IMG/VR virus record: IMGVR_UViG_3300030382_002497
Location: 1-20,736 of that record
Strand: one strand, 5' to 3'
Length of the DNA: 20,736 nt
DNA from: a virus
Below the pieces are notes generated by a model. The model did no database searches. It had not been told where the DNA came from and was given only the letters and a program-made list of their open reading frames with translations. Position numbers and translations under genes: made by a program. Positions 1-11,279 of the stretch are shown piece by piece (within the stretch, counting starts at the first letter, position 1; every line of letters begins with the position of its first letter).

Positions 1-1
1 A

Positions 2-427
2 AAAAAGAAGGATTTAAAACCAACATTTAGATTAAACGCCTATTCTGATATAAGGTGGGAAAATGATATAATTACAGATAATAAAAATATCTTTGAATTA
101 TTCCCTAGTATCACTTTTTACGATTATACGAAAGTTCCCAACAGAAAAACCCCTAAAAACTACGAATTGACATATTCACATTGGGGAAAATGGGAAACCA
201 CAAACAAAAAATTGAAAAAAGGGCATAATGTAGCCATGGTTTTCAATAAAAATAATAAATTGCCAGATATTTTTCAGAATAAAAAAGTAGTTAATGGGGA
301 TAAAACCGACCTAAGAACCAGAGAAAATGATGGTGATGGTGTAATTGTTGGGTTACTTGCGAAAATGTCCAAGGAAAAAATAGAAAATGAATTGAAAAAA
401 GATGTTTCATTCATAGTAAAAAGTTAA
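2..427 (+). CDS. Gp88-like phage protein, C-terminal part (gene runs off left edge)
   Basis: The reading frame is open from the first bases of the window to the TAA at 425-427, so only the last 141 residues are seen and the true start lies outside. The visible part has the order RLNAYSDIRWE, then FYDYTKVPNR, then YELTYSH, then NVAMVF, then VVNGDKTDLR, then GVIVGLLAK. This order of short motifs matches, from memory, the C-terminal half of the phage family named after mycobacteriophage gene product 88, whose biochemical role is not established. The internal TTG at 167 is not a credible start because coding continues upstream of it. The next gene follows 25 bases later, with a GTTAAAC palindrome overlapping the stop codon. 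Confidence 0.72.
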   Translation, partial: KKKDLKPTFRLNAYSDIRWENDIITDNKNIFELFPSITFYDYTKVPNRKTPKNYELTYSHWGKWETTNKKLKKGHNVAMVFNKNNKLPDIFQNKKVVNGDKTDLRTRENDGDGVIVGLLAKMSKEKIENELKKDVSFIVKS

Positions 428-435
428 ACTTTAAC
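423..435. promoter_or_regulatory. Palindrome copy 1, GTTAAA-C-TTTAAC, over a stop codon
   Basis: A perfect 13-bp palindrome with a central C. It contains the TAA stop (425-427) of the preceding gene and lies just upstream of the AAGGAG of the next gene. It belongs to a set of five similar sites in the window, all at gene ends. The dyad shape and repeated placement suggest a protein-binding site. The role is inferred. Confidence 0.6.
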
Positions 436-452
436 AAAAAAAGGAGAAAAAA

Positions 453-596
453 ATGAGAGAGTTAATAATAAGTGCATTAGAGAGGCTAATAAATTCCGAT
501 TCTCGGAATATTAAAAGGGACACTATAGACGAACTTACTTATTTGTCGGATGTGACATTGCTTAACCTATATGACAAATTAAAAAGGAGTAAATAA
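453..596 (+). CDS. Small hypothetical protein, 47 aa
   Basis: This short gene begins at ATG 453, six bases after a strong AAGGAG (441-446), and ends at TAA 594-596, overlapping the next start as TAATG. The 47-residue product begins MRELIISALERLINSDSR and ends KLKRSK. It looks soluble and helical, with leucines and isoleucines spaced as in an amphipathic helix, and has no cysteine and no membrane span. I do not recognise a family. The ribosome binding site and coupling to its neighbour make it a probable real gene of the early small-gene cluster. Confidence 0.6.
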   Translation: MRELIISALERLINSDSRNIKRDTIDELTYLSDVTLLNLYDKLKRSK

Positions 597-715
597 TGGA
601 TCAAATTATAAAAGAACTGGAATTTTTATTAGAAAATGATGGTGAAAAAATAAAAACAAATGATATGGTGCAAGTAATTAAAAGAATAATAATAAGAATA
701 AAAGAGGAAAAATAA
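596..715 (+). CDS. Small hypothetical protein, 39 aa
   Basis: ATG 596 overlaps the preceding TAA (TAATG) and has its own AAGGAG at 584-589, inside the end of the upstream gene. The 39-residue product (start MDQIIKELEFLLENDGEKIK) is charged. It has an acidic N-terminal helix and a C-terminal stretch rich in arginine, lysine and isoleucine. No known domain is recognised. Tight spacing on both sides indicates a shared transcript with 453-596 and 717-800. Confidence 0.55.
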   Translation: MDQIIKELEFLLENDGEKIKTNDMVQVIKRIIIRIKEEK

Positions 716-716
716 T

Positions 717-800
717 ATGTGGATCACATTATTCGAGATAGCAATTATAATAAGTGGATTTATTTTTATGGTTATAATTGGTAATGAAATTGACCTGTAA
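717..800 (+). CDS. Tiny single-span membrane protein, 27 aa
   Basis: ATG 717 follows the preceding TAA by one base, with AGAGG at 703-707 as a plausible ribosome binding site. The 27 residues consist almost entirely of one hydrophobic segment (roughly residues 4-22, ITLFEIAIIISGFIFMVII) followed by a short polar tail NEIDL. This is the composition of a phage membrane micropeptide. Function is unknown. It is the last gene before the promoter at 809-837. Its small size leaves some doubt, but its position in an overlapping gene chain and its composition argue for translation. Confidence 0.5.
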   Translation: MWITLFEIAIIISGFIFMVIIGNEIDL

Positions 801-808
801 AAAAGTAC

Positions 809-837
809 TTGACAAGGTCATTTAATGGTTATAATTT
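809..837 (+). promoter_or_regulatory. Strong sigma70-type promoter
   Basis: TTGACA at 809-814 is a perfect -35 element. Seventeen bases later comes TAATTT (832-837), and a register shifted two bases gives a perfect TATAAT at 830-835 with a 15-bp spacer. Either way, transcription would start near 842-845, giving a leader of about 25 bases before ATG 869 that includes the AGAGG ribosome binding site. It lies in a 68-base gap between genes, the natural place to start a new transcript for the small-gene block that follows. Confidence 0.7.
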
Positions 838-868
838 CAGGCAACAATAAAAGACAAGAGGCAATACA

Positions 869-1096
869 ATGATGATATTAAACTACAAATCGAAAAAACA
901 AATCAAAGAATCTATTGGGAAAACCCTAGATTATACTGAAACATCATTTTTCGGGAACGAATATAAATCTGATGGTACTTTTTGCGGGTGCAATAGACCC
1001 TATTCCCCGGAATATCCAAAATTTGAGCAACGCAAAGGTCGTGAATTTTTCGCTGAGATCACAATGGAAAATGACTTAATAAAGGGCGTAAAATGA
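869..1096 (+). CDS. Conserved hypothetical phage protein, 75 aa
   Basis: This is the first gene after the promoter at 809-837, with AGAGG (857-861) seven bases before ATG 869. The product has a pattern I associate with short conserved proteins of marine tailed phages: an NYKSKKQIKESIGK start, then YTETSFFGNEYKSDG, then GREFFAEITMENDLIKGVK. No function is known to me for these. There is a CGC pair in the middle (around residues 39-41), and no membrane segment. The TGA overlaps the next start as ATGA, implying translational coupling. Confidence 0.7.
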   Translation: MMILNYKSKKQIKESIGKTLDYTETSFFGNEYKSDGTFCGCNRPYSPEYPKFEQRKGREFFAEITMENDLIKGVK

Positions 1097-1194
1097 TAGA
1101 TTATATTTTAAACCCATATTTTTTAATAAACGTACTTTGGATGATTACATTTATAATTATATCCAAAGTAATAACCACAAAGGACACAAAATGA
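1093..1194 (+). CDS. Tiny membrane protein, 33 aa
   Basis: ATG 1093 overlaps the preceding stop (ATGA), and GGG at 1084-1086 is a usable ribosome binding site. The 33-residue product has a hydrophobic segment at roughly residues 10-26 (FLINVLWMITFIIISKV) and a short polar C-terminus ending KDTK. Its TGA again overlaps the next ATG at 1191. Function is unknown. The double ATGA coupling supports translation despite the small size. Confidence 0.55.
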   Translation: MIDYILNPYFLINVLWMITFIIISKVITTKDTK

Positions 1195-1361
1195 AAATCA
1201 AATTGAAAGAACTAGAAAAAAACATACCTGACCGGATCACCGGAATGGAAACAGTAGGGGAAAAGGTCGTTGTATCTTTCCCAAATGGTCGATTGGTTAT
1301 ATTGCCAGATGATCAAAAACCACAAATGGGTTATTCTCTCAGAAAACAATCTAGGAAATAG
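1191..1361 (+). CDS. Small hypothetical protein, 56 aa
   Basis: The start at ATG 1191 is chosen because it overlaps the upstream TGA and has AAAGGA at 1179-1184, six bases upstream. A longer reading from TTG 1137 would run across the membrane micropeptide gene and lacks a ribosome binding site. The product (MKIKLKELEKNIPDRITGMETVG...) contains a beta-rich centre, KVVVSFPNGRLVILPDD, and a basic tail. It is soluble and not recognised. The next gene starts nine bases after its stop. Confidence 0.6.
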   Translation: MKIKLKELEKNIPDRITGMETVGEKVVVSFPNGRLVILPDDQKPQMGYSLRKQSRK

Positions 1362-1370
1362 GGGTTATAA

Positions 1371-1565
1371 ATGATGCCTAAAATTTGGACAAAAAAACAC
1401 ACCCAGAAAACCCTAAGAAAGCTCAGAAAATGGGGATATGATGTGCAAAAAATACATGATGGCTTTTACAAGGCATACTTGAACGATACATTGGTATTCT
1501 CTGCTTTGCGTGGTCGGAATAGTTATATTTGTAGATTGAACCCAGAATTCTTTGAAAAAAGTTAA
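1371..1565 (+). CDS. Small basic hypothetical protein, 64 aa
   Basis: ATG 1371 is followed directly by a second ATG at 1374, with a G-rich AGGGG about six bases upstream. The N-terminal half is strongly basic (KIWTKKHTQKTLRKLRKWGYDV), with a short beta-like segment after it (GFYKAYLNDTLVFSAL). This resembles the outline of a small nucleic-acid-binding protein, but no family is recognised and the role is open. The stop codon lies inside the variant palindrome GTTAAG-G-CTTAAC at 1561-1573. Confidence 0.6.
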   Translation: MMPKIWTKKHTQKTLRKLRKWGYDVQKIHDGFYKAYLNDTLVFSALRGRNSYICRLNPEFFEKS

Positions 1566-1573
1566 GGCTTAAC
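1561..1573. promoter_or_regulatory. Palindrome copy 2 (variant GTTAAG-G-CTTAAC) over a stop codon
   Basis: A perfect 13-bp palindrome with central G. It differs from the GTTAAA-N-TTTAAC form by one symmetric substitution (A to G with matching T to C), so the dyad is preserved. It contains the TAA (1563-1565) of the preceding gene. Its AAGG also seems to serve as the ribosome binding site of the gene at 1577, so protein bound there could affect both transcription and access to that start. Confidence 0.5.
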
Positions 1574-1576
1574 AAT

Positions 1577-1939
1577 ATGAAAATGAAATTAGTACAAAGA
1601 CCAATGACCGCCCAGATTATGGATCGTGATACGCACGATTTTACAGGCTGGGAATGGAAAAACTTGGGTTTAATCTGTAAGGGTGTGCAAAATGATGAAG
1701 GCTACTGCAATGTTTATGCACATTTAGGACGACCAGATAAGGATTCGGATTTTATAATTATCCGCATTCGTGAAAAATACTTTTACACCCTATCTGGCAA
1801 TCCGCACCATATCGATGAAGTGACTTGGGATTGGTGCGGTGATCTAGATTTTTATATTAATGAATATAAAGGTGAAGATAAACGTACTTGGGATGGTGCG
1901 TTCACTGGATCACATACAGGGGGCTTTCGTAAGATATGA
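1577..1939 (+). CDS. Hypothetical protein, 120 aa
   Basis: ATG 1577 (second ATG at 1583) follows AAGG at 1564-1567, part of the palindrome. The 120-residue product is soluble and rich in aromatic and acidic residues. Notable stretches are HDFTGWEWKNLGL, NVYAHLGRPDKDSDFIIIRI, VTWDWCGDLDFYINEYKG and a glycine-rich end FTGSHTGGFRKI. No catalytic motif or known domain is recognised. It overlaps the next gene by an ATGA at 1936-1939. It is clearly coding by length and codon flow, but of unknown function. Confidence 0.68.
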   Translation: MKMKLVQRPMTAQIMDRDTHDFTGWEWKNLGLICKGVQNDEGYCNVYAHLGRPDKDSDFIIIRIREKYFYTLSGNPHHIDEVTWDWCGDLDFYINEYKGEDKRTWDGAFTGSHTGGFRKI

Positions 1940-2187
1940 AATTAAAAACACTCTACCATGTAATGCGTGAAATTTCAGAAGTGAAAAATAAACTTATATC
2001 AATAGGTAGAACATGGTATCCTGAAGATTATATAGAAATTCGTAAATTATCATGGCTATGTGAACAACTAGAGCCACTTTGCGAAGGGGTCGATCCAGTA
2101 AATTTAAGATTTGAAAAAGGGGAATTCATCTGGGATGAACATTTGGATATTTTTGAAAACCAAGAGGAGAAAGAAAATGATACTTGA
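1936..2187 (+). CDS. Hypothetical protein, 83 aa
   Basis: It starts at ATG 1936 inside an ATGA overlap with the previous gene, with GGGGG ending at 1923 as a distant ribosome binding site. The product appears mainly helical (YHVMREISEVKNKLISIGRTW, then EIRKLSWLCEQLEPLCEG) with an acidic C-terminus (EEKENDT). Two cysteines are present, but there is no metal-binding pair. No family is recognised. The gene overlaps the next start at 2177 by 11 bases. Confidence 0.62.
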   Translation: MKLKTLYHVMREISEVKNKLISIGRTWYPEDYIEIRKLSWLCEQLEPLCEGVDPVNLRFEKGEFIWDEHLDIFENQEEKENDT

Positions 2188-2326
2188 ATTAATATTGGGA
2201 ATAATAATTTGTGTACCTATTTTTTGGTGCTTTAAATTGAAAACTGATTTGAACATAGCAAACCACAAATTGGATAAGTGGCGTGATACTGCAATTAAAT
2301 TAAATAAGGAGAAACAATGCAACTGA
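2177..2326 (+). CDS. Small N-terminally anchored membrane protein, 49 aa
   Basis: The start at ATG 2177 is chosen because an AGGAG (2165-2169) precedes it, and because a longer reading from 2111 would lie almost wholly within the upstream gene. The protein has a hydrophobic N-terminal helix (residues 2-19, ILELILGIIICVPIFWCF) followed by a lysine-rich, probably helical cytoplasmic or periplasmic part ending NKEKQCN. The shape recalls small phage inner-membrane proteins, but it is too short to be called a spanin or holin. It overlaps the next gene by ten bases. Confidence 0.55.
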   Translation: MILELILGIIICVPIFWCFKLKTDLNIANHKLDKWRDTAIKLNKEKQCN

Positions 2327-2595
2327 GAAAAGTTAGAGAAGTCTATGCAAAAGCCGATATTGAGGGCAAACTGACAGATTCACAAGTACACTACTGTGAA
2401 TCGTGCAACCGATGTTGGGAATCTGCCAAAATATTCAAATGGAAAGGGAGAGTGAGAAAACCAGTTCAAGGTTATTATTTCTATGAAGATTTCCCAACTT
2501 GGGGTAAAAAGCGTGTTATATGCTCAGATTGTAGTGGTGCTAAATTGCAAGTCCGAGAGTATAGAGGGATGCTTTTATGGGAAGTAGTGGAGTAG
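2317..2595 (+). CDS. Zinc-ribbon-like hypothetical protein, 92 aa
   Basis: ATG 2317 follows AAGGAG (2307-2312). The product carries two cysteine pairs, YCESCNRCW (around residues 27-34) and VICSDCSGAK (around residues 69-76), spaced as in a zinc ribbon. A basic, aromatic stretch lies between them (KWKGRVRKPVQGYYFYEDFPTWGKKR). This suggests a small metal-stabilised nucleic-acid- or protein-binding domain, although no specific family is recognised. It is the last gene before an intergenic block containing three TGTACT/AGTACA elements. Confidence 0.66.
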   Translation: MQLRKVREVYAKADIEGKLTDSQVHYCESCNRCWESAKIFKWKGRVRKPVQGYYFYEDFPTWGKKRVICSDCSGAKLQVREYRGMLLWEVVE

Positions 2596-2598
2596 AGT

Positions 2599-2637
2599 GT
2601 ACTTATTATTAATTTTTAGTACATAGGTGTGTACTAA
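2599..2637. promoter_or_regulatory. Three TGTACT/AGTACA elements forming a hairpin
   Basis: The 62-base gap between two genes holds TGTACT (2599-2604), AGTACA (2618-2623) and TGTACT (2630-2635). The last two form a perfect 8-bp stem, TTAGTACA / TGTACTAA (2616-2623 and 2630-2637), with a 6-nt loop. The element sits just upstream of the AAGGAG of gene 2658, so it could be an operator or an mRNA hairpin in that leader. It is not followed by a T-run, so it is not a classical terminator. Confidence 0.45.
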
Positions 2638-2657
2638 TTATAAAAAAGGAGAATAAA

Positions 2658-2990
2658 ATGAGAAAAATAATGGTCAGCATAGATGATGAGGGGTACACCA
2701 AAGAGGATAGTAATGTATATGTGGATAGAGTTCTAAATGAACTGAGAAAAGAATATGAAAACTGTTCGGACATATGGTTTGATGAGTGGAAAAAATCTGA
2801 CGAACTGGAACTTACAATCCCTGAAAGGGTCAAGTCCTATGATAGATTGGCAATGGTGGTTAGTGACATTGACATTTCAAAGTACAACCAAAAAGAGTAC
2901 AGAGATATTGTACAATCGGTTGTAAATGAACTTAATCTTGAATGGGAAGGGTTTCTTGGCAATCCTTTTGTGGGTATCCATTGGGATTAA
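2658..2990 (+). CDS. Hypothetical acidic protein, 110 aa
   Basis: A strong AAGGAG precedes ATG 2658. The 110-residue product is acidic and mostly helical: DDEGYTKEDSNVYVDRVLNE, then YENCSDIWFDEWKKSDELEL, then SDIDISKYNQKEYRDIVQSV, ending with the aromatic tail GFLGNPFVGIHWD. It has no membrane segment or metal site, and I do not recognise a family. The stop codon TAA (2988-2990) touches the 21-bp palindrome at 2990-3010, and the structured RNA follows directly. Confidence 0.65.
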   Translation: MRKIMVSIDDEGYTKEDSNVYVDRVLNELRKEYENCSDIWFDEWKKSDELELTIPERVKSYDRLAMVVSDIDISKYNQKEYRDIVQSVVNELNLEWEGFLGNPFVGIHWD

Positions 2991-3010
2991 ATTGTTAAAG
3001 TTTAACAATT
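2990..3010. promoter_or_regulatory. Palindrome copy 3, 21-bp perfect dyad after a stop codon
   Basis: This is the longest of the five palindromes. Its 17-bp core TTGTTAAAGTTTAACAA (2992-3008) is extended by two matching bases on each side. It begins on the last base of the preceding stop codon. Its last two bases are the first two bases of the stem that closes the RNA element at 3009-3108, so the two elements abut. Confidence 0.65.
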
Positions 3011-3108
3011 GGGGAAGAATGATTAACTGCTACGGTGAGTTGTTCAGCAGGGGTAACGGATTTGTTAGGTTCACACCCCGGCACACTAACACTTCCCCAA
3101 ATTTTTTT
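3009..3108 (+). ncRNA. Candidate structured RNA with terminator-like end
   Basis: TTGGGGAAG (3009-3017) pairs perfectly with CTTCCCCAA (3092-3100), and seven T follow (3102-3108). Inside the closing stem are two more helices: CTGCT/AGCAG (3027-3031 with 3046-3050) and TGTTAG/CTAACA (3063-3068 with 3086-3091). The second stacks directly on the closing stem. GGGGT (3050-3054) can pair with ACCCC (3075-3079) in the loop of the second hairpin, a possible pseudoknot. The element is clearly less AT-rich than its surroundings. It is not a tRNA and matches no riboswitch or ribozyme consensus I know. It could be a free small RNA ending in its own terminator, or a leader controlling the gene at 3128. 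Confidence 0.5.
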
Positions 3109-3127
3109 AAAATAGCTGGAGGAAAAA

Positions 3128-3358
3128 ATGAAACTAACTAAAAAACAAACTGAAGAACTTCAAAAACATGGGTACGATCCTTGCGTAAAGCACCTGAATT
3201 TATATCCAGAGGATTTCATGCAGGACTTGAACGTATGGAACCAAGTGTGTCAATGCTTGGGTATAGACCCTAGTGATGTGCCTTGGCGTAGTGGAGTTGT
3301 ATTGGCAATAGTTGGAGTTAAAATAGAGCAATTACTTTGCGAAGTGGAGGAAGAATGA
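3128..3358 (+). CDS. Hypothetical protein, 76 aa
   Basis: ATG 3128 follows GGAGG at about 3118-3122. The product begins with a charged helix (MKLTKKQTEELQKHGYDPC) and continues with HLNLYPEDFMQDLNVWNQVCQCLGID, then a hydrophobic stretch SGVVLAIVGVKIEQLLCEV and an acidic end. Four cysteines are present but not paired as in a zinc ribbon. No family is recognised. The gene follows the structured RNA directly, so it could be regulated by it. It overlaps the next gene by ATGA at 3355. Confidence 0.62.
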   Translation: MKLTKKQTEELQKHGYDPCVKHLNLYPEDFMQDLNVWNQVCQCLGIDPSDVPWRSGVVLAIVGVKIEQLLCEVEEE

Positions 3359-3501
3359 TTATATTTGAAACAAACTGGATATTGGAATTTCTGGTATTCA
3401 CGGTAACTTGTCTTGGATTATCCCTGTCACTTCTGGCTATGGGTTTTTCATTCTTAATTTTCTTGCATATTGCAAATAAAATAAATAGGAGTAGGCGATG
3501 A
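3355..3501 (+). CDS. Small membrane protein, 48 aa
   Basis: ATG 3355 overlaps the preceding TGA and has GGAGG at 3346-3350. The 48-residue product is dominated by hydrophobic residues 9-40 (ILEFLVFTVTCLGLSLSLL, then AMGFSFLIFLHIA), long enough for one long or two short membrane spans, and ends in a positively charged tail NKINRSRR. That charge pattern suggests a cytoplasmic C-terminus. It could be a small phage membrane effector, or a holin-like protein in the broadest sense, but no lysis genes are nearby. Its TGA overlaps the next ATG at 3498. Confidence 0.58.
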   Translation: MIIFETNWILEFLVFTVTCLGLSLSLLAMGFSFLIFLHIANKINRSRR

Positions 3502-3785
3502 AAGAACAGGAATTTGCAAAATACTGTGAGCGATTAAATCATTTAATTTGTGATGCAATGAATAAGTTTATTGATGGGTGTAATATTGAAGAAATTAGTG
3601 AGGATGAACTTGCAAATGTTACGTCAGCCGTGTTAAGTGAAACTCATCTTTCTCACTTTGCCTTTTACTTTTTTGAGGATACGAATGATATTGATTCGTA
3701 TATGGAATTTTTAAAAAAGGAACTGGAGCAAAAGTGTTTAGTGCCGATGACTATACTTTCTAAAGAAATTGTTGGGAGGGCGTAA
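3498..3785 (+). CDS. Hypothetical acidic helical protein, 95 aa
   Basis: ATG 3498 is part of an ATGA overlap and is preceded by AGGAG at about 3487-3491. The product is acidic and likely all helical: EFAKYCERLNHLICDAMNK, then EEISEDELANVTSAVLSETH, then FAFYFFEDTNDIDSYMEFLK. It has no recognisable domain. The gene is in the middle of a chain of coupled genes (3355-4475), each overlapping the next by one to four bases, so it is almost certainly translated as part of the early operon. Confidence 0.62.
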   Translation: MKEQEFAKYCERLNHLICDAMNKFIDGCNIEEISEDELANVTSAVLSETHLSHFAFYFFEDTNDIDSYMEFLKKELEQKCLVPMTILSKEIVGRA

Positions 3786-4012
3786 TGGAATTTACCTGCA
3801 TAAAATGTGAATTTAAGTTTCACGAAACTAATATGGATACAGATGAGCGTATGTGTTATGATTGTCTTGATGAAGACGAAACAGAACCTACTAGAGAGCC
3901 AGTTGTTGGTTCACAACCTTACCCAGAATGGGATTGTGAAAAAGGTTGTTATATTTTGCCTATGAAAAGAAGAATAGAGGTAGAAATAACATATGAGGGG
4001 GAAGAAGAATGA
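3785..4012 (+). CDS. Small zinc-finger-like acidic protein, 75 aa
   Basis: ATG 3785 overlaps the preceding TAA (TAATG), with GGGAGGG immediately upstream. The N-terminus has CIKC (residues 5-8) and CYDC (residues 24-27), the spacing of a compact zinc-binding ribbon. An acidic linker (DEDETEPTREP) and a beta-like tail (RIEVEITYEGEEE) follow. It may be a small protein-interaction or regulatory factor. No specific family is recognised. An ATGA overlap leads into the next gene. Confidence 0.62.
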   Translation: MEFTCIKCEFKFHETNMDTDERMCYDCLDEDETEPTREPVVGSQPYPEWDCEKGCYILPMKRRIEVEITYEGEEE

Positions 4013-4293
4013 ATAAATCATATATTAAGGACGATATATTTTACAAACACGAAAAAGAATCTGGGAAACTGCGATTATCTGGTGGATCATGGACTATTAA
4101 TTTAGATAAACAAAGCCTTGACTCAATCAATTATATAGTGTATATTACAAGCCAATATAGGTACAAAATTAGCTGTAAAGATGCACTTGACAAGGGTTAT
4201 ATTAGAAATTTTAAAGGTGAAAATAAGTTAATCGTGCCAATAAAACATTGGGATAAAATGCGGATTTGGTTCAGAGGAAAGGGATGTGTGTAA
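4009..4293 (+). CDS. Hypothetical protein, 94 aa
   Basis: ATG 4009 overlaps the previous stop and has a purine-rich GGGGGAAGAAG just before it. The product has alternating basic and hydrophobic residues. Stretches include FYKHEKESGKLRLSGGSWTI, INYIVYITSQYRYKISC and the C-terminal ENKLIVPIKHWDKMRIWFRG. This looks like a small mixed alpha/beta protein, but I recognise no catalytic motif. Its stop overlaps the next ATG (TAATG at 4291-4295). Confidence 0.62.
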   Translation: MNKSYIKDDIFYKHEKESGKLRLSGGSWTINLDKQSLDSINYIVYITSQYRYKISCKDALDKGYIRNFKGENKLIVPIKHWDKMRIWFRGKGCV

Positions 4294-4475
4294 TGCCGTA
4301 CCCATTTAAAAAAAAGGAGAATATAGTGAAGAAAAGAGTAGACAAAACAAATAGGGAGCTTGCAAAAGACATGGGATGTACTCCCCGTCAAATATCCAAA
4401 TCCCGAAAGCGTGGCTGGATATGGAGAGATGATAAAAAAGTCAAGTACAAAGCACCGCTACCAGTACAATTATAG
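4293..4475 (+). CDS. Small helix-turn-helix DNA-binding protein, 60 aa
   Basis: The product contains an HTH-like core, TNRELAKDMGCTPRQISKSR, followed by a basic, tryptophan-rich patch KRGWIWRDDKK. It resembles the N-terminal DNA-recognition unit seen in small phage regulators and in some terminase small subunits. Two starts compete. ATG 4293 is coupled to the upstream stop and gives a typical MPYPFKKKE opening. GTG 4326, in the same frame, lies six bases after a perfect AAGGAG (4314-4319) and would give 49 residues. It is a candidate for the protein that binds the palindromes in this genome, but nothing links them directly. Confidence 0.6.
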   Translation: MPYPFKKKENIVKKRVDKTNRELAKDMGCTPRQISKSRKRGWIWRDDKKVKYKAPLPVQL

Positions 4476-4483
4476 GAGGTTAT

Positions 4484-4687
4484 ATGCTTAGAATGAACCG
4501 ATCTAAAACAAACATACCAAAAAGTAAATGTGCCAATTATAATACTGATGGGAAATGTTTGGGGATTATGATTGATAAAAAACTCAACCAATGGAGAGAT
4601 GTTAATAAATCTGGTAAACGATGCTTGGTAATAAAAGGCGAAGAGTGTGATTATTATAATATATGCGTAAAGCCTATTGTAAGTTGA
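4484..4687 (+). CDS. Cysteine-rich small phage protein, 67 aa
   Basis: A strong AGGAGG lies just before ATG 4484. Five cysteines are arranged as CANYNTDGKCLG (residues 16 and 25), GKRCLV (around 47) and EECDYYNICVKP (around 55 and 62). I associate this pattern with short metal-binding phage proteins that have C-ANY-G-KC and C-YF-C segments, whose function is undefined. Zinc or iron-sulfur binding is an inference from the cysteines. The gene ends 44 bases before the next start. Confidence 0.62.
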   Translation: MLRMNRSKTNIPKSKCANYNTDGKCLGIMIDKKLNQWRDVNKSGKRCLVIKGEECDYYNICVKPIVS

Positions 4688-4731
4688 CAAAAAAAATTAT
4701 TAACTTGGACGCATAAAATGGAGACTTTAAA

Positions 4732-4932
4732 ATGAATGACGAAAACTATTTATCCGAATGTTGCGATGCTCTGCCATTATTGGATGTTAACGAATGTGAC
4801 GGTGATATCATGGGTGAGTGTTCATTGTGTAAGAAGTGGGTGGAATTTTATTACAGCCTTTTCTACCGTGAAGACATGATAGATTGGCAAGATGAACTTG
4901 AATACATAGCTAAAAAACTGGAGGATTTATGA
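4732..4932 (+). CDS. Small zinc-ribbon-like protein, 66 aa
   Basis: ATG 4732 has GGAG at 4720-4723, eight bases upstream. The N-terminal half carries SECCDALP (residues 8-13) and GECSLCKKWVEF (around residues 29-38), giving two cysteine pairs as in minimal zinc ribbons common in phage genomes. The C-terminal half is acidic and helical (WQDELEYIAKKLEDL). It overlaps the replication initiator start by ATGA at 4929-4932, so it is translationally coupled to replication genes. Confidence 0.64.
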   Translation: MNDENYLSECCDALPLLDVNECDGDIMGECSLCKKWVEFYYSLFYREDMIDWQDELEYIAKKLEDL

Positions 4933-5729
4933 AATTTGGATATTACGGTTATATCCCAGCATTGGTAAGACATAATAAAGAGCTTACACCTATGGCAAAG
5001 TTGGTGTATGCAGAGATCACAGCGAACATGGAAGAACAAGGTTACTGCAAAAAAAACAATGCCTACTTTGCCCGTATTTTAAATTCATCAAAAACTACTG
5101 TAACCGCTTGCATTACCAAGTTGCGGGAAAAAGGAATGATTGATGTAATCATTGAAAATGAAAAAGAAACTAAAAAATTTATGAACCGTTATATTACCAT
5201 CACCCCACCTTGTTTTCTGGGTGGGGTAGCTAATCAAAGCGGATTGTACCATACCAGATTATCGGGTGGGGTAGAATTGGATGTAGACGACAAAATTACC
5301 AAAAATGGCTCTAGGTATGCCGAAAATCCGGGTTCATTATTATTACATAATAATGTTACTTATATATATTCTTATAAGAATGGTGCTATCAAATTGGACA
5401 TGAGTATAAATAAACAACAATTGGCATATTTAAAAAATATAGTTATGAAATTCTATTCCGAAAAACGAAAAGCATTCCCAGAAACCATAGGCATTGATTG
5501 GGAAAAGGACGGGGATTTGGTTAACGGCTCTATAAATACTCTGTACGAATTAATCACTAGGGATAAGTGGGATGAATCAGATGTCAAAAATGTTATCCAT
5601 TGGTCTTTATTCCATCCATTTTGGATGCAGAATTTATTCAGCCTGAGAACCTTGCGTAGTAAATCTAATAACGGGAATAGTAAGTTTACCAATTTATTTA
5701 ACCAATGGAACAAAGATAGGGGTAACTAA
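4929..5729 (+). CDS. Phage replication initiator (replisome organiser), 266 aa
   Basis: The N-terminal 80 residues form a winged-helix domain. PMAKLVYAEITANM is followed by the recognition region NAYFARILNSSKTTVTACI and wing KLREKGMIDV (about residues 43-73), as in phage replication initiators of the HTH_36 type. Residues 92-150 are a low-complexity linker. The C-terminal part ends with IHWSLFHPFWMQNLFSLRTLR (224-244) and FTNLFNQWNK, matching the FW-then-LR signature at the C-terminus of phage replisome organisers, which load the helicase. The linker-coding DNA holds repeated GGTGGGGT boxes and an AT-rich palindrome, as lambda O carries its origin. The stop overlaps the primase-helicase start (TAATG). 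Confidence 0.78.
   Translation: MKFGYYGYIPALVRHNKELTPMAKLVYAEITANMEEQGYCKKNNAYFARILNSSKTTVTACITKLREKGMIDVIIENEKETKKFMNRYITITPPCFLGGVANQSGLYHTRLSGGVELDVDDKITKNGSRYAENPGSLLLHNNVTYIYSYKNGAIKLDMSINKQQLAYLKNIVMKFYSEKRKAFPETIGIDWEKDGDLVNGSINTLYELITRDKWDESDVKNVIHWSLFHPFWMQNLFSLRTLRSKSNNGNSKFTNLFNQWNKDRGN
5201..5390 (+). other. Candidate replication origin inside the initiator gene
   Basis: GGGTGGGGTAG occurs exactly twice (5219-5229 and 5264-5274), and an inverted ACCCCACC lies at 5202-5209. That gives three GGTGGGGT boxes in a gene that is otherwise AT-rich. The first two form an 8-bp inverted repeat with a 10-nt gap. About 60 bases further on is a perfect palindrome with 9-bp arms CATTATTAT / ATAATAATG (5335-5355), then a run of TATATATATT (about 5361-5371). 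Iterons beside an easily melted segment within the initiator gene are the architecture of lambdoid origins. Function here is inferred. Confidence 0.5.
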
Positions 5730-7402
5730 TGACATTTGAAGAGCATGGAATATTTCTCAGGGATTCTTCAGGGCAATCAAAGGTGCAATGTCCTAAATGT
5801 TCCCATAGGAGAACTAAAACATCTGATCCTTGCCTATCAGTAAATATTGATGAGGGTGTGTGGCATTGTCATCATTGCGGATGGAAAGGATCATTGAAGA
5901 AAAAATTTAAGCCCTTAACAATTTCCGAAACAGAAAAACCTATTTTCAAGCATAAGACGGAACTTCCAAAGAAAATCTATAAGTGGTTTGAAGATCGTGG
6001 CATTTGTAAAACCGTTGTTGATGCAGAAAAGATTGGATACAGTAATCGATGGATACAATTCCCGTTCTATAAGGATGGTGAAGTTGTTAATATCAAATCC
6101 AGAACTGCTGATAAAAAATTCCGTCAATCCAAAAATGCTGAAAAATGTTTCTATAGATTTGACTACATGAAAGGAATGGAGACAATTATAATTACAGAAG
6201 GAGAAATGGATGCCTTGTCACTTGTACAAGTTGGCTTTACCAATGTTATATCGGTTCCAGACGGGGCAACAGCACCAAACTCAAATCCTAGTGATAGAAA
6301 ATTTAGTTACTTGCTCTCAGCGGAAGAGCATTTAATGAACGCTAAGACTGTTATATTATGTACAGATAGTGATGGTGCTGGCAATCATCTTAGGGATGAA
6401 TTATCCAGACGTATAGGTAGGGAAAAATGTTTTAGGGTCAACTACCCAGATGATTGTAAGGATATGAATGATGTGCTGATTAAGTACGGTGAAGATAAGG
6501 TTACAGATATCGTTAGCAATGCCTATCCCTACCCCATAGATGGCGTTGTAATGGTTCAGGACGTAGAAGATGATGCAATAGATTTATTATTAAGACCCGA
6601 ACAAATGGGGTTATCAACTGGATGGTCAGGTCTTGATGGGGTCTACAGGGTAAGTAAATCCGAAGTTACAGTTGTAACTGGCATCCCCAATATGGGAAAA
6701 TCAGAATGGGTTGATGCGTTAATGATCAATATGGTTCAGGATTATTCTTGGAACTTTGGTATATTCTCTGCTGAAAATTTTCCCGTAAAACACCACCTGT
6801 TAAAATTGGTAGGTAAATTTACTGGGAAACCTTTTTGGGGTGAAGAACGGATGGGGGAAAATACAGCCAGAACTGCAATGCAGTTATTGAATGACCACAT
6901 CAAATTTATAGGGACTCAGGAAGATACAGTAACCGTAGAATCTATATTGGAGCAATCTAGGTTACTTAATTATAGATACGGATTAAATGGATTAATAATT
7001 GATCCTTGGAATACAGTTGAACATAAATTCAGGGATGGGGAAAATGAGACTAATTATGTCTCTAGAATTCTAGCTAAATTAAATACGTTTGCTAAGGTAA
7101 ATGAAATGCACATATGGGTAGTAGCACACCCACGAAAGATGGAAAATGGCGTTGATAGAAAACCGCTTGTACCAACACCTTATGATATATCCGGGTCAGC
7201 AAACTGGTTTAATAAGTGTGATAATGCGATCACTATACATCGGCATAGAAACGAAGAGCAAGATTATGTTGGCGTTCATGTTAATAAGATCAGATTCCAG
7301 CATAAGAACGGTAAACCGGGGACTGCCAAATTAAGGTACAACCTAAAAAACGGGAAATACAATGAATACATCGAGGAATTTAAAGAAAATCTATTTAGAT
7401 AG
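5729..7402 (+). CDS. Primase-helicase fusion (T7 gp4 / Twinkle type), 557 aa
   Basis: Three domains are visible in order. An N-terminal zinc ribbon (C21, C24, C47, C50) recognises template in primases. A TOPRIM domain has TEGEMDAL (156-163) with catalytic E157, and the metal-binding DSDGAG (213-218). A RecA-like hexameric helicase follows, with STGWSGLDGVY (296-306), Walker A GIPNMGKS (318-325), SAEN with the likely catalytic glutamate E349, Walker B LIIDPWN (422-428), then VVAHPRKM and DISGSANWFNKCDNAI. It would unwind the fork and prime lagging-strand synthesis. Length is normal for the family. ATG 5729 overlaps the initiator stop, with GGGG upstream. No DNA polymerase gene lies in this window. 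Confidence 0.92.
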   Translation: MTFEEHGIFLRDSSGQSKVQCPKCSHRRTKTSDPCLSVNIDEGVWHCHHCGWKGSLKKKFKPLTISETEKPIFKHKTELPKKIYKWFEDRGICKTVVDAEKIGYSNRWIQFPFYKDGEVVNIKSRTADKKFRQSKNAEKCFYRFDYMKGMETIIITEGEMDALSLVQVGFTNVISVPDGATAPNSNPSDRKFSYLLSAEEHLMNAKTVILCTDSDGAGNHLRDELSRRIGREKCFRVNYPDDCKDMNDVLIKYGEDKVTDIVSNAYPYPIDGVVMVQDVEDDAIDLLLRPEQMGLSTGWSGLDGVYRVSKSEVTVVTGIPNMGKSEWVDALMINMVQDYSWNFGIFSAENFPVKHHLLKLVGKFTGKPFWGEERMGENTARTAMQLLNDHIKFIGTQEDTVTVESILEQSRLLNYRYGLNGLIIDPWNTVEHKFRDGENETNYVSRILAKLNTFAKVNEMHIWVVAHPRKMENGVDRKPLVPTPYDISGSANWFNKCDNAITIHRHRNEEQDYVGVHVNKIRFQHKNGKPGTAKLRYNLKNGKYNEYIEEFKENLFR

Positions 7403-7577
7403 AGTAAATGCGATGCCATCCGTTTCAGATCAAAGTATGGATCGGCATATCAGAAAAATGCGTACCAGATTATGGGAAGAGTTTGACGATATATGGTTAC
7501 GGTACGAGAAAGGTAAGGCATCATTTGAACTATGGGAGAAATCCCTTGACAGATGGTTAAAAGCGGAGTTATTATGA
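7362..7577 (+). CDS. Small hypothetical protein, 71 aa
   Basis: ATG 7362 lies 41 bases inside the end of the primase-helicase gene, with CGGGAA upstream. ATG 7413, in the same frame and just past that gene, is an alternative start that would give 54 residues. The conserved-looking part is a helical, tryptophan-rich segment, MRTRLWEEFDDIWLRYEKG followed by FELWEKSLDRWLKAELL. No known domain is recognised. The TGA overlaps the metallophosphoesterase start (ATGA at 7574), so it belongs to the replication operon. Confidence 0.58.
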   Translation: MNTSRNLKKIYLDRVNAMPSVSDQSMDRHIRKMRTRLWEEFDDIWLRYEKGKASFELWEKSLDRWLKAELL

Positions 7578-8338
7578 AAGTAAAAAGATATGTAGTCACA
7601 CCAGACAAGCATTTCCCAATAGCGGATATGAAAGCTATTAGTGTTGTCTGTCAGGCTATAGAAATTATAAAGCCAGATGGTTACATCACATTAGGTGACG
7701 ATTTTGAAGGCTCTTCAGTATCGCACTGGCAGTGGAAGAAAAAGAAACGACCACCGCTAGAATACCAGTTGCCGATGGTTTATAAGGAGATTGAGGAGGC
7801 AAATGCTGGGATGGATATAATCGATGAATCGATAGATAAGGCTGGGGTAAAAGAGAAACACTTCATCGAGGGAAACCATGAAGAGTGGCTGAATAGCTTT
7901 GTAGCAGAGAACCCATTTTTAGCGGATAAACTAGCAGTACACAAAGCATTTTCCCTGAAAGATCGGGGTTATAAATACCATAAGTTCGGTAAGATGCTTA
8001 AAATAGGTAAGCTAAACTTCTACCACGGTCATCATTTTGCAGGTATAAATCACACCAGAAATCATCTTTTACGTCTAGGTGGGAATATCATGTATGGACA
8101 CCATCACGACATCCAGCAATCATCCGTAACTCACATTGATGGGGTTAAATCTGCATGGTCAATAGGATGCTTAAAGGACATGAGTGCGGATGCGAATGAA
8201 TGGCTTGGGAACAGGCAACACAACTGGCAACACGCTTTTGCTATAGTAGATTTCTACTCTACTGGATTTTTTACGGTTCATGTGGTGCAGATTATAAATG
8301 GAAGGACTTCATTATGGGGAGAATTAATTACAGGCTAG
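7574..8338 (+). CDS. Calcineurin-like metallophosphoesterase, 254 aa
   Basis: The protein carries the ordered metal-binding motifs of the calcineurin-like phosphoesterase superfamily: DKH (D11, H13), LGDDFEG (D42, D43), EGNHEEW (N101, H102), HGHH (H151-H154) and YGHHHD (H176-H178). Such enzymes use two metal ions to cleave phosphodiesters or phosphomonoesters. In phage genomes they often sit among replication genes, and the substrate is usually unknown. ATG 7574 is chosen because it overlaps the upstream stop and has GGAG six bases upstream. A reading from 7553 would add seven residues without a ribosome binding site. The promoter at 8341 begins right after its TAG. Confidence 0.88.
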   Translation: MKVKRYVVTPDKHFPIADMKAISVVCQAIEIIKPDGYITLGDDFEGSSVSHWQWKKKKRPPLEYQLPMVYKEIEEANAGMDIIDESIDKAGVKEKHFIEGNHEEWLNSFVAENPFLADKLAVHKAFSLKDRGYKYHKFGKMLKIGKLNFYHGHHFAGINHTRNHLLRLGGNIMYGHHHDIQQSSVTHIDGVKSAWSIGCLKDMSADANEWLGNRQHNWQHAFAIVDFYSTGFFTVHVVQIINGRTSLWGELITG

Positions 8339-8340
8339 TA

Positions 8341-8370
8341 TTGACTTGTATGATAATTAATACTTAAATT
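8341..8370 (+). promoter_or_regulatory. Promoter for a leaderless mRNA
   Basis: TTGACT (8341-8346) and TAAATT (8365-8370) are separated by 18 bases. They directly follow the TAG of the phosphoesterase gene. The ATG of the next gene (8376) is only five bases past the -10 hexamer, so transcription would start at or beside the start codon. No ribosome binding site precedes that ATG. The same arrangement, with the same GCT before the ATG, recurs at 9739-9767. An AGTATT/AATACT inverted pair (8337-8342 and 8359-8364) overlaps the -35 and spacer. Confidence 0.6.
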
Positions 8371-8375
8371 AAGCT

Positions 8376-8576
8376 ATGAAATTCATAATAGAAACAAAAG
8401 ACAAAAAGTTTATAAAAGCACTTTCGGAAACTATATCTAGAAAAGGTTACACAATCTATGAAAAACTAGGTGGATATGGGGTCTATGATCTTGAACAAAA
8501 GGATCAGAATTTTCTAAAGAATATGGTAGCCCAGTTGTGCAACCATTACAATGTAAATTACAGGGTTAAATGTTAA
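8376..8576 (+). CDS. Small basic hypothetical protein, probably from a leaderless mRNA, 66 aa
   Basis: ATG 8376 has no Shine-Dalgarno sequence but lies five bases after a -10-like TAAATT, so a leaderless transcript is likely. The 66-residue product is basic with a predicted alpha/beta pattern: MKFIIETKDKKFIKALSETI, then GYTIYEKLGGYGVYDLEQ, then FLKNMVAQLCNHYNVNYRV. No domain is recognised. Its stop TAA (8574-8576) falls inside palindrome copy 4. A separate promoter in the middle of the replication module suggests different timing from its neighbours. Confidence 0.62.
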   Translation: MKFIIETKDKKFIKALSETISRKGYTIYEKLGGYGVYDLEQKDQNFLKNMVAQLCNHYNVNYRVKC

Positions 8577-8585
8577 ACTTTAACA
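8571..8585. promoter_or_regulatory. Palindrome copy 4, TGTTAAA-C-TTTAACA, over a stop codon
   Basis: A perfect 15-bp palindrome with central C containing the TAA (8574-8576) of the preceding gene, 14 bases before the ATG at 8600. It has the same core as copies 1, 3 and 5. Confidence 0.6.
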
Positions 8586-8599
8586 AATTGGGAGTTTAT

Positions 8600-8902
8600 A
8601 TGGCAACAGAAAACTGGAAATATAGAGAAATGGATAAGAATGCCCTTAATGAAAAAGATTATTACTGGGCAAGTATTGCATGGGATGGATATAGCGAAGA
8701 AACAGAGGGTGAGCAAACAATAATGAGATATAAGATTGAATATTTATTCGAGGATGTTGCTTACTATTTAGATAAATTTAAAGGAAGAGATGCTTATTTG
8801 GCTTGTGCATCACATGAATTTAATGGCGAAGAAAAGGATATAACATCATTGGTTTTGAACGCAATTTCAACAAAAAAAGAAAAGGATAAACATGGAAAAT
8901 AA
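8600..8902 (+). CDS. Hypothetical protein, 100 aa
   Basis: ATG 8600 is chosen because GGGAG (8589-8593) lies just upstream. An in-frame ATG at 8570 would start inside the palindrome and the previous gene and has no binding site. The acidic product contains DYYWASIAWDGYSEETEG, MRYKIEYLFEDVAYYLDKFKG and a lysine-rich tail KKEKDKHGK. It is soluble, with no recognised domain. It overlaps the start of the SSB-like gene by 11 bases, and may act with it, but this rests only on position. Confidence 0.62.
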   Translation: MATENWKYREMDKNALNEKDYYWASIAWDGYSEETEGEQTIMRYKIEYLFEDVAYYLDKFKGRDAYLACASHEFNGEEKDITSLVLNAISTKKEKDKHGK

Positions 8903-9386
8903 AGACAATCTAAAGATAGCAGTAAATACTGATAACATTGTCGAGTTTATGTACGATACACCCAAGCAAGGCACAAACAATTATGGTGCTTGGTTCTTGT
9001 ATGGTCTAAGACAAGGCGATAAGGAGGTCGGTTTATTTGCTACTGAAACTCTCCATAAAAAATTGCAATTCTACGGGATTGGAGATAAGGTTAATATCCG
9101 AAAAGAAGAGATTGACAATGGCAGAGTAGCGTGGAATGTGATACCACAAGAAGGTACTACCGCAAAATATAATGGCAGTCCGAATCTTGCACCTCCTAAA
9201 TTGGACAATAGGACACACGACATACATAAACAGGTTTGCCTGAAGTTAGCCGTAGACAACATGGAAAAAAGCGGTAAGTGTTACACGAGTGGTGAACTGG
9301 TGGTGATAGAAGCTAATATGTATGCCCTGCTCGATGTTCTAGAAGGCTCTGCTGGTAGTCAAGAAAAAGAAGAAGTACCGTTCTAA
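8892..9386 (+). CDS. ssb: Probable single-stranded DNA-binding protein, 164 aa
   Basis: The C-terminus is QEKEEVPF. This is the short acidic tail ending in Pro-Phe that bacterial and phage SSB proteins use to recruit replication partners, preceded by a low-complexity linker. The N-terminal part has the beta-rich pattern expected of an OB fold (NYGAWFLYGLRQGDKEVGLFA, then YGIGDKVNIRKEEI, then GRVAWNVIPQ). The length of 164 residues fits the family. The gene sits between replication genes, with AAAAGGA just before ATG 8892. Assignment rests on tail, size and context rather than a recognised OB sequence signature. Confidence 0.6.
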   Translation: MENKDNLKIAVNTDNIVEFMYDTPKQGTNNYGAWFLYGLRQGDKEVGLFATETLHKKLQFYGIGDKVNIRKEEIDNGRVAWNVIPQEGTTAKYNGSPNLAPPKLDNRTHDIHKQVCLKLAVDNMEKSGKCYTSGELVVIEANMYALLDVLEGSAGSQEKEEVPF

Positions 9387-9731
9387 ATGAAGAAATCATT
9401 ATCTAAGAAACTGGACAACGCTTGGTCTGCAAAAGTCAGGGAATATGGAATGTGCGAATATTGCCACAAAACGAAAAGGCTGAATTCCCATCATTTCTTT
9501 TCCAGATCATGTTTATCGGTACGCTGGGACTTGGATAATGGATTTTGCCTTTGTGTTGGATGCCATGTTTTCTCATCGAAATTCTCTGCACATAAAACTC
9601 CAGCAGAATTTTGTGAATGGGCTATTGAAAAGCGTGGCATCCAATGGTATGAGGCTCTAAGAGAGCGTAAAAATAACATTGTGAAATGGAAAGACGATGA
9701 CTACAATTTCATTAAGTGTTATTTAAATTAA
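9387..9731 (+). CDS. HNH/NinG-like zinc-binding nuclease or recombination protein, 114 aa
   Basis: The motif order is CEYC (23-26), LNSHHFF (32-38), SVRWDLDNGFCLC (44-56) and CVGCHVF (56-62). This is the CxxC, HH, N, CxxCH arrangement of HNH-type treble-clef nucleases and of the lambda NinG (Rap) group, followed by the helical segment AEFCEWAIEKRGIQWYEAL. Such proteins cut or resolve branched DNA during phage recombination. The start codon follows the SSB-like stop with no gap. Together with the NinB-like gene at 10923 it gives the module a nin-region flavour. Whether it is catalytically active cannot be judged from sequence alone. Confidence 0.7.
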   Translation: MKKSLSKKLDNAWSAKVREYGMCEYCHKTKRLNSHHFFSRSCLSVRWDLDNGFCLCVGCHVFSSKFSAHKTPAEFCEWAIEKRGIQWYEALRERKNNIVKWKDDDYNFIKCYLN

Positions 9732-9738
9732 CATACAC

Positions 9739-9767
9739 TTGACTTAACGAAAAATTATTGGTAAATT
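9739..9767 (+). promoter_or_regulatory. Second promoter for a leaderless mRNA
   Basis: TTGACT (9739-9744), a 17-bp spacer and TAAATT (9762-9767) are followed by five bases (TAGCT) and ATG 9773. Hexamers, downstream pentamer length and the GCTATG junction match the promoter at 8341-8370. It begins seven bases after the stop of the HNH-like gene. A weak AAGTGT/ACACTT inverted pair (9715-9720 and 9735-9740) overlaps its upstream edge. Confidence 0.62.
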
Positions 9768-9772
9768 TAGCT

Positions 9773-10075
9773 ATGGATAAAAAAGAACAAAATATACTCG
9801 AATCTCTAGAGAAACTTCAGAATAAACTAACAAATATCTGGAATCATACAGAACTAGAGATGGACGATTTTTCCACTACTGGTCTTAAAAAAGAATTAAA
9901 CAAAATTAGCAATATTGTGAATGATCTAGTTGGGGATTCTGAAAATATTATAATGAAAATGAATATGAATTTCCAAGAGAAGAATCATAAATCATATTGC
10001 TCTCATTGTCAAAGCGATAAAGTTTTTGTGTGTGAGCCTTGCTTGGAAAAAATGGCTGAACACTACGGGGAGTAG
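9773..10075 (+). CDS. Hypothetical helical protein with C-terminal zinc-binding pair, 100 aa
   Basis: The start is placed at ATG 9773 because it sits five bases after a -10 element and continues MDKKEQNILESLEKLQNKL. The in-frame TTG at 9758 would lie inside the promoter spacer. No ribosome binding site is visible, consistent with a leaderless message. The first 70 residues are strongly helical and possibly coiled-coil, and the C-terminus has CSHC and CEPC (around residues 76-92), a likely zinc site, ending EKMAEHYGE. No family is recognised. It may be a small scaffold or regulator expressed separately from its neighbours. Confidence 0.62.
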   Translation: MDKKEQNILESLEKLQNKLTNIWNHTELEMDDFSTTGLKKELNKISNIVNDLVGDSENIIMKMNMNFQEKNHKSYCSHCQSDKVFVCEPCLEKMAEHYGE

Positions 10076-10088
10076 GAGATTTTATAAT

Positions 10089-10211
10089 TTGGGGATATCG
10101 TTGATTGAATCATTTTTTAAACATATTTGGTATGTTTGGAGGATGTTTAGGTTGACAAATGAATGGCTGATATCCCCGAAGACTTTAAAAAAGGAGAAAG
10201 TAAATGGATAG
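10089..10211 (+). CDS. Possible small gene with TTG start, 40 aa
   Basis: This is a weak call. TTG 10089 lies ten bases after AGGAG (10074-10078), and the reading frame runs to TAG 10209-10211, overlapping the next ATG (10204) by eight bases. The product would be ISLIESFFKHIWYVWRMFRL followed by a basic tail, an amphipathic, aromatic peptide. The gap of 128 bases between confident genes in such a compact genome makes a gene here likely. The same stretch carries a 9-bp inverted repeat (10091-10099 and 10169-10177), so it could instead be regulatory. Confidence 0.35.
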   Translation: MGISLIESFFKHIWYVWRMFRLTNEWLISPKTLKKEKVNG

Positions 10212-10413
10212 TCTATGGTACTACACACTAGAGTTGTTTGTGAGTCCTGAAAACAATGCTTGGATACTAAATGTTATGATCACTTGCGTAGCATTTATAG
10301 TTTTCATGTTTAGCAATATGCAGATTAGAAATTCTATATGGAGAATGGAAAGCGGTGAAGGTGCTGATTATAAAGTTTCAATCTGGTCTGATATAAAGCA
10401 ACTTTTCTATTAA
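10204..10413 (+). CDS. Small single-span membrane protein, 69 aa
   Basis: AAGGAG (about 10191-10196) precedes ATG 10204. A hydrophobic segment covers roughly residues 19-38 (AWILNVMITCVAFIVFMF), flanked by an acidic N-terminal part (LELFVSPENN) and a basic-then-mixed C-terminal part (RNSIWRMESGEGADYKV). The charge distribution favours the C-terminus in the cytoplasm. No family is recognised. Its TAA overlaps the next gene (TAATG at 10411-10415), which therefore needs no ribosome binding site of its own. Confidence 0.6.
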   Translation: MDSLWYYTLELFVSPENNAWILNVMITCVAFIVFMFSNMQIRNSIWRMESGEGADYKVSIWSDIKQLFY

Positions 10414-10727
10414 TGAAAGTAGATGATTTCAAGAAATGGGCAGAGTCCGTACAGAAAGAAGAAAATAGGATCATGCTCGTTAAAGGAAAAGAGTACACTG
10501 TTTCTGATGAAGATAAATTCAAGAACTTTAAGAGCATAGCTGAAAGGCTTGGCTTAACATCTGAATTAATTTGCCTTGTTTATCTATTGAAACATATGGA
10601 CTCTATTCGTAATTATGTGCTGACGGGGACTGAGGTATCTGAAGAACCTATTGTTACTAGGATACAGGATGCACGAAACTATTTATTACTGCTAGGTGGG
10701 ATCATTGAAGAAAGAAAAGGGTTTTGA
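10413..10727 (+). CDS. DUF1599-like protein (nucleotide modification associated domain 1 type), 104 aa
   Basis: The sequence follows the DUF1599 pattern from memory: NRIMLVKGKEYTVSDEDKFKNFKSIAERLGL, then LKHMDSIRNYV, then a variable loop with SEEP, then TRIQDARNYLLLLGGIIEER. The family is helical and has been linked by gene context to phage nucleotide and DNA base modification. A related MazG-like fold would suggest handling of nucleoside triphosphates. There is no Shine-Dalgarno sequence, and translation is probably coupled to the preceding membrane protein through TAATG. No other base-modification enzyme is visible here, so the role remains inferred from the family. Confidence 0.6.
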   Translation: MKVDDFKKWAESVQKEENRIMLVKGKEYTVSDEDKFKNFKSIAERLGLTSELICLVYLLKHMDSIRNYVLTGTEVSEEPIVTRIQDARNYLLLLGGIIEERKGF

Positions 10728-10953
10728 GGATAGCTCCATACAATGGGTTATTGATGCATTAGGAAATCGGTTAGTGGAAAAGAGGTCGAGGGAGAATCAC
10801 AAAATGGACGAAATAAGGGCTGACGTGATTCTCTCTTGGTGTCCAGTATGCTGTAGGAAATGGAATTTATTCGAGGGGAGATTATGGAGTTCCCCAGATA
10901 ACAAACTTTGGAAAGAAAAAATATGCCCAGATTGCGATTCCCTTGTTCAATAA
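10705..10953 (+). CDS. Small zinc-binding hypothetical protein, 82 aa
   Basis: The start is uncertain. TTG 10705 has GGTGG just upstream, GTG 10696 is another option, and both lie within the end of the previous gene. The distinctive region is the C-terminal half, SWCPVCCRKWNLFEG and KICPDCDSL, two cysteine pairs about 30 residues apart that fit a zinc ribbon. The N-terminal half is basic and probably helical. No family is recognised. The C-terminal coding sequence overlaps the NinB-like gene start by 31 bases. Confidence 0.58.
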   Translation: MKKEKGFEDSSIQWVIDALGNRLVEKRSRENHKMDEIRADVILSWCPVCCRKWNLFEGRLWSSPDNKLWKEKICPDCDSLVQ

Positions 10954-11279
10954 AAAACGGTAAAATGTTTATATTGGATAGGGAAGGTTTTAACAGGGCA
11001 ATATCCAATCTTGACGGTGATTACTATTTAGAGTTAAAAGAAACAAAAGTTAGATCGTCACAGCAAAATAATTACTACTGGAATATTGTAAGAATACTGG
11101 CAGATGAATTAGGTTATACAGAAAGAGAAATGCATGAAACAATAAAAAATCATTTCTCAATACAAAGTACAAAGACCTTATCTACAAAGGAATTTGGTGA
11201 TTTTATAGAAAAATTAATTAGGATGTGTGCTATAGAGTTAGATGTTGTTATTCCTGACCCCACTACTATATGCCAATAA
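10923..11279 (+). CDS. NinB-like recombination protein, 118 aa
   Basis: The central motif KVRSSQQNNYYWNIVRILAD (about residues 41-60), followed by GYTEREMHETIKNHF, is close to the R-S-Q-Q-N-Y-W signature and following EMHE helix of NinB-type phage proteins. In lambda, NinB (Orf) assists Red recombination by loading on SSB-coated DNA. The length of 118 residues is slightly below lambda NinB. ATG 10923 is preceded by GGAAAG; a later ATG at 10965 lacks a good site. This is the last gene of the plus-strand module, 13 bases before the terminator hairpin. Confidence 0.55.
   Translation: MPRLRFPCSIKNGKMFILDREGFNRAISNLDGDYYLELKETKVRSSQQNNYYWNIVRILADELGYTEREMHETIKNHFSIQSTKTLSTKEFGDFIEKLIRMCAIELDVVIPDPTTICQ

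Follow-up and report, generated by a model that had tools for sequence, protein, structure and literature searches.

A predicted orphan RNA domain with a terminator-like closing stem and pseudoknot potential in an uncultured phage, and a family of tRNA-like minihelices in intergenic gaps of other phages

The gap between two small genes of an uncultured phage contains an element, at positions 3009-3108, that is, as read from its sequence, an orphan RNA domain. A perfect stem of 9 bp (P1), followed by a T tract, encloses an insert of 74 nt that could fold into a pseudoknot. The anatomy of this element exceeds chance and is unlikely to be a product of it, whereas its bulk fold stability does not stand out. 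Our leading, though tentative, explanation is a cotranscribed cis element that acts as a messenger end or as a read-through switch in front of the gene at 3128. The window, i.e. the whole stretch of DNA that was analyzed, is the entire 20.7-kb virus record (20,736 nucleotides) and probably a fragment of the genome. Its plus strand carries the early region with small, tightly packed genes, while the late genes are found on the minus strand. As the preliminary description had placed it, the element sits in a gap of 137 nt that runs from the end of a 110-aa gene at 2990 to the start of a 76-aa gene at 3128 (Table 1). Elsewhere in the window, a promoter-like sequence, ttgacaaggtcatttaatggttataat, was seen at 806-840, upstream of a 75-aa gene at 869. 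The homologues of the latter gene in three related loci (L008, L017, L054) are 80-87% identical to it, far above the neighbouring small genes.

All parts listed in the preliminary description were found in the sequence: the perfect 9-bp stem, the second helix flush with it (S2), a third hairpin (P2), the GGGGT/ACCCC pairing (S1) and the T7 tract. The element is also less AT-rich than its flanks, as had been claimed, with a G+C content of 45/92 over 3009-3100 versus about 35% in the surroundings. Together, S1 and S2 make up a potential H-type pseudoknot, in which the connectors measure 8, 6 and 6 nt and the S2 loop 17 nt; only in this pseudoknotted form can the two helices coexist. The nested fold of minimum energy retains P1 and S1, lacks S2 and folds 3020-3046 into an alternative hairpin that competes with P2. 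Since G3050 is common to P2 and S1, one of these helices loses a pair. The GC-rich stem is followed within 1-2 nt by a U tract, as in intrinsic terminators, and there is an acceptor-like stem with a second helix flush on its 3' side (3092-3098 contiguous with 3086-3091). The GGGG of the P1 5' arm could double as a ribosome binding site (RBS) for an ATG at 3019.

Table 1. Coordinates of the element, of its gene context and of minihelix copies in loci of related and other phages (L numbers).
Feature	Sequence record	Position	Strand	Remarks
Upstream gene, 110 aa	window	2658-2990	+	ORF, function unknown
Palindrome AATTGTTAAAGTTTAACAATT	window	2990-3010	+	GTTAA-N3-TTAAC; overlaps P1 by 2 nt; 1 of 5 window copies
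P1 5' arm TTGGGGAAG	window	3009-3017	+	9 perfect pairs with 3092-3100
Alternative ORF, 40 codons	window	3019-3141	+	RBS-like GGGG; weak codon signal, no homologue
P2 hairpin	window	3027-3050	+	CTGCT 3027-3031 / AGCAG 3046-3050, 14-nt loop
S1 5' arm GGGGT	window	3050-3054	+	pseudoknot partner is 3075-3079
S2 5' arm TGTTAG	window	3063-3068	+	pairs with 3086-3091
S1 3' arm ACCCC	window	3075-3079	+	within S2 loop
S2 3' arm CTAACA	window	3086-3091	+	flush with P1 3' arm, zero gap
P1 3' arm CTTCCCCAA	window	3092-3100	+	pairs with 3009-3017
T7 tract	window	3102-3108	+	just 3' of P1
Downstream gene, 76 aa	window	3128-3358	+	ORF, function unknown; RBS GGAGG 3118-3122
Replication initiator	window	4929	+	early region
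Primase/helicase	window	5729	+	early region
Minihelix	L007	1110-1153
Minihelix	L009	5616-5659
Minihelix	L009	5726-5770
Minihelix	L013	5463-5506
Minihelix	L062	5512-5555
Minihelix	L018	5960-6006
Minihelix	L124
Minihelix	L133
Minihelix	L165

The closing stem and its tail are rare. For a 9-bp stem (at least 5 GC) with at least five T the expectation was 0.015 per window-sized Markov sequence, both strands counted, and the same stem with a T7 tract did not occur in any of 400 simulated windows. On the plus strand of the early region (1-11300) the T7 run at 3102-3108 is the only one. Within the insert, a 6-bp helix flush with P1 was recovered in 0.93% of 40,000 dinucleotide shuffles, and the flush helix combined with a GC-rich pseudoknot in 0.04% of 40,000; the rarity of S2 plus S1 is overstated by these values, because the thresholds were set post hoc with the sequence already seen. 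S1 alone is common (12.6% of shuffles). The folding z of the element varied with the stretch chosen, from -1.8 to -3.0, which puts it at about rank 13 when 224 mostly coding windows from the early region are compared. We therefore dropped the thermodynamic z-score as proof of structure, since it is ordinary among windows.

We searched widely for relatives of the element. A scan of the window with Rfam 15 revealed no family at or above its gathering threshold, and no tRNA was found at the element by ARAGORN or Rfam RF00005. These scans support the reading as a structured RNA outside the tRNAs, the Rfam families and the known riboswitch classes. The best look-alike in Rfam, BTncRNA_FopS (RF04319), shares a 3' hairpin and a U tract, but the hairpin of our element contains a 74-nt insertion, and the score was at chance level (20.9 bits versus a gathering threshold of 56, E 0.48). 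Matches to miRNAs were likewise at chance level. A tRNA reading with TTCACAC as T-loop was rejected, position 58 being a C and the stem unpaired. The element was not recovered by blastn and nhmmer in 80 related loci collected via the primase, most of them 70-79% identical. A single-sequence covariance model, R1, gave no match in the whole records of 49 relatives, nor in loci with relatives of the upstream gene. Partial relatives of this gene occur in 12 viral contigs, none of which (0/12) carries the element. Blastn against phage and plasmid records, core-pattern scans of viral and genome collections and a route via protein neighbours all yielded no homologue, in a searched set that possibly does not include the records closest to the window. 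The pattern of the closing stem had seven matches, with different folds and located elsewhere; where relatives have a closing stem with a T tract, these matches appear unrelated, as do the remaining matches of a stacked-helix and pseudoknot scan over 2.1 Mb.

The nucleotide search that the preliminary description had proposed for homologous loci came back empty. Its central claim, a structured RNA with a possible pseudoknot, gains from the rarity against shuffles but not from conservation. With pseudoknotted leader riboswitches and attenuators the element shares an aptamer-like, closed pseudoknot domain upstream of a gene, but it lacks an Rfam match, a known conserved core and homologues. A leader function for the gene at 3128 had also been suggested. 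It is possible, but upstream of the homologues of this gene (L011, L051-L053) the structure is absent.

Directly upstream, the element abuts a palindrome, copies of which lie at 421, 1559, 2992, 8570 and 11342 of the window. The motif GTTAA-N(3-5)-TTAAC was found at 115 sites in 0.93 Mb (window and relatives, L006-L069), far above two control motifs. Its spacer is 3, 4 or 5 nt long and mostly constant per phage. The sites lie before RBSs, upstream of promoter-like sequences and, in many relatives, at a fixed place in the primase gene; about half of the 115 sites have an RBS and an ATG no more than 75 nt downstream. By this distribution the palindrome looks like a dispersed, putative stoperator-type operator or repressor site. 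In five relatives (L008, L017, L018, L048, L054) a hairpin that is terminator-like or strong comes next, and in L007, L124, L133 and L165 a tRNA-like minihelix with an RBS behind it. Structured elements thus recur at this intergenic position in the group.

We favour, tentatively, the cis element described above, since a U7 tract is flush with a GC-rich stem and the insert could hold the distant arms of this stem together. The folded insert would draw the arms of P1 toward each other, with S2 stacking on P1 and the S1 pseudoknot locking the insert. P1 and U7 would then terminate a fraction of the transcripts after the 2658-2990 gene, and read-through into the 3128 gene and later genes would be lowered or conditional. 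We infer that the helices form in the RNA, that termination or formation of a messenger end follows and that this is regulated. The RBS and ATG just 3' of the element, within the same intergenic gap, are in line with such a role. A GC-rich stem flush with a U tract is the hallmark of intrinsic termination; a further resemblance to an intrinsic terminator is the position of the element on the coding strand, with a gene on either side. However, the loop of a typical intrinsic terminator is short, about 3-10 nt, whereas the stem found here spans 74 nt and closes an insert with a possible pseudoknot. The terminator tail ascribed to the element earlier is supported in part only, by its U tract. A terminator scan with loops of 3-8 nt did not list the element. 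The early region held only 2 terminator-like sites, compared with 6.2 expected from shuffles, and a mid-operon terminator would be atypical there unless regulated. The ordinary fold energy and the lack of a homologue also speak against a cis element.

The minihelices of the related phages proved to belong to a larger family. A minihelix of about 44 nt consists of an acceptor stem, a short, D-loop-like AATGGTTT linker and a T-arm (TTCGATT); D and anticodon arms are absent. The L007 copy reads GGGCA-AATGGTTTCAG-TTAGG-TTCGATT-CCTAA-CC-TGCCC-ACCA. Minihelices occupy intergenic gaps of diverse phages, with more than 100 further viral loci (L089-L208). The pattern of their invariant parts was present in at least 120 viral stretches and in 61 contigs of bacterial genomes, where part of the matches are chance hits inside long reading frames. 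Covariation is strong in both stems. Of 107 distinct viral copies, 95 form all three free T-stem pairs, compared with 9.6 under permutation, and 52 form at least six of seven acceptor pairs, compared with 13.5. In a 22-sequence alignment, which was picked for paired stems, 97.9% of the cells were paired versus 54% after shuffling, with a covariation of 1.11 versus 0.19. As 5' and 3' arms covary across phages, we do not favour a reading of the minihelices as attP-like 3' remnants of tRNAs. Rfam at its thresholds has no family matching the minihelices in the loci tested, ARAGORN misses them, and no description was found in the literature searched, preprints and most subscription papers being outside its scope. 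The family is apparently undescribed so far. Three minihelix-like copies within 300 nt were also noted on the minus strand of a Draconibacterium MAG contig (L238, about 3160-3457); by a simple count these have only 4-5 acceptor pairs.

In the mycobacteriophage Indlulamithi (L282, NC_048824.1 34000-46000), minihelices fill most gaps of an early operon. The family model detects ten copies that are complete, at E <= 0.001. With variants read by eye included, a minihelix or tRNA-like sequence is present in about 12 of the 14 gaps that measure at least 60 nt and lie between 34.9 and 43.6 kb, and the rest of the 71.5-kb genome has no minihelix at E <= 0.01. About seven were seen in Fowlmouth (L286, NC_048734.1), again in a region of this kind. 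In both phages the minihelices are unannotated, lie in many 85-100-nt gaps of one operon, in Indlulamithi in almost all of them, and are followed by a small hairpin and an RBS. They are candidates for a tRNA-punctuation system cut by RNase P.

This raises the question whether the element itself is a tRNA-like messenger-processing site, cut by host RNase P or a tRNA 3' nuclease, a reading that we consider unlikely. Here, GGGGAAG/CTTCCCC and S2 would mimic the stack of acceptor stem and T-arm, and the pseudoknot would replace the elbow of D-loop and T-loop. The coaxial two-helix geometry without a gap (7+6 pairs from G3011) fits, as does the arrangement in L007, L124, L133 and L165, where the GTTAANNNTTAAC palindrome lies directly upstream of minihelix and RBS. 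Cleavage of pseudoknot RNAs by RNase P, which also supports this reading, has been reported (PMC12710915). Like tRNAs and the minihelices of L007, L009, L124, L133 and L165, the element has a stem of 7-9 bp with a second helix flush on the 3' side and, like the minihelices, it lies between palindrome and RBS. By contrast, it lacks a TTCRANN T-loop, a AATGGTTT linker, a CCA and an anticodon arm, it measures 89-92 nt instead of about 44, and its T7 tract is not a minihelix feature. ARAGORN reports no tRNA, and the minihelix in the relatives precedes a different gene. The covariance model of the family, R2, run on the window with filters off, found nothing at 3009-3108 (best E 1.7, elsewhere in the window), and we rejected membership of the element in the family. 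What it shares with the family is confined to the gap-free stack of two helices and its place between palindrome and RBS. That it nevertheless works like a minihelix is unlikely. Improbable, too, is the joint proposal that phages possess a widespread, apparently undescribed tRNA-punctuation system of short tRNA-like RNAs without anticodon arm, placed in polycistronic gaps and cut by host tRNA-processing enzymes, and that the element represents a diverged variant of it with a pseudoknot.

Less likely than a processing site is a small protein gene at 3019-3141, starting from GGGGAAGAATG after the palindrome, with the structure incidental or hiding the RBS. The start of this frame is preceded by GGGGAAGA, which is RBS-like and also the P1 5' arm. 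The stretch 3011-3021 (GGGGAAGAATG) resembles the start of a neighbouring gene, GAGGAAGAATG, and the frequent RBS and ATG behind the palindrome agree with a gene here. Its codon usage lies above 91% of stop-free shuffles (p = 0.09), but it misses the p <= 0.05 that 84% of real gene pieces of 40 codons attain, and no protein relative was found in phage records or related loci. The coding reading is not favoured. We give an even lower probability to chance, with complementary G/C blocks present by accident in an AT-rich gap of the phage. The missing homologue, the ordinary folding energy and the post hoc choice of features would suit it, but the expectation for stem and T tract is low, and stacked helix plus pseudoknot are independently rare. 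The preliminary description had also considered a phage small RNA. Least probable is such an RNA as an independent transcript of about 90-100 nt that has a promoter and a terminator to itself: compact fold, U-rich 3' end and size are right, but no sigma-70-like promoter was found on the plus strand at 2850-3010, the palindrome looks more like a dispersed site of protein binding than like a promoter, and there is no conservation.

The element, a well-formed orphan, would exemplify a folded phage pseudoknot domain inside a terminator-like stem. The broader yield is the family of about 44-nt minihelices, with more than 100 distinct, strongly covarying viral copies and a presence in most gaps of one operon of an isolated mycobacteriophage. 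Punctuation of messengers by tRNAs is known from mitochondria. Phages, among them this phage of Mycobacterium smegmatis, would share that strategy if the minihelices serve as sites of processing by RNase P.
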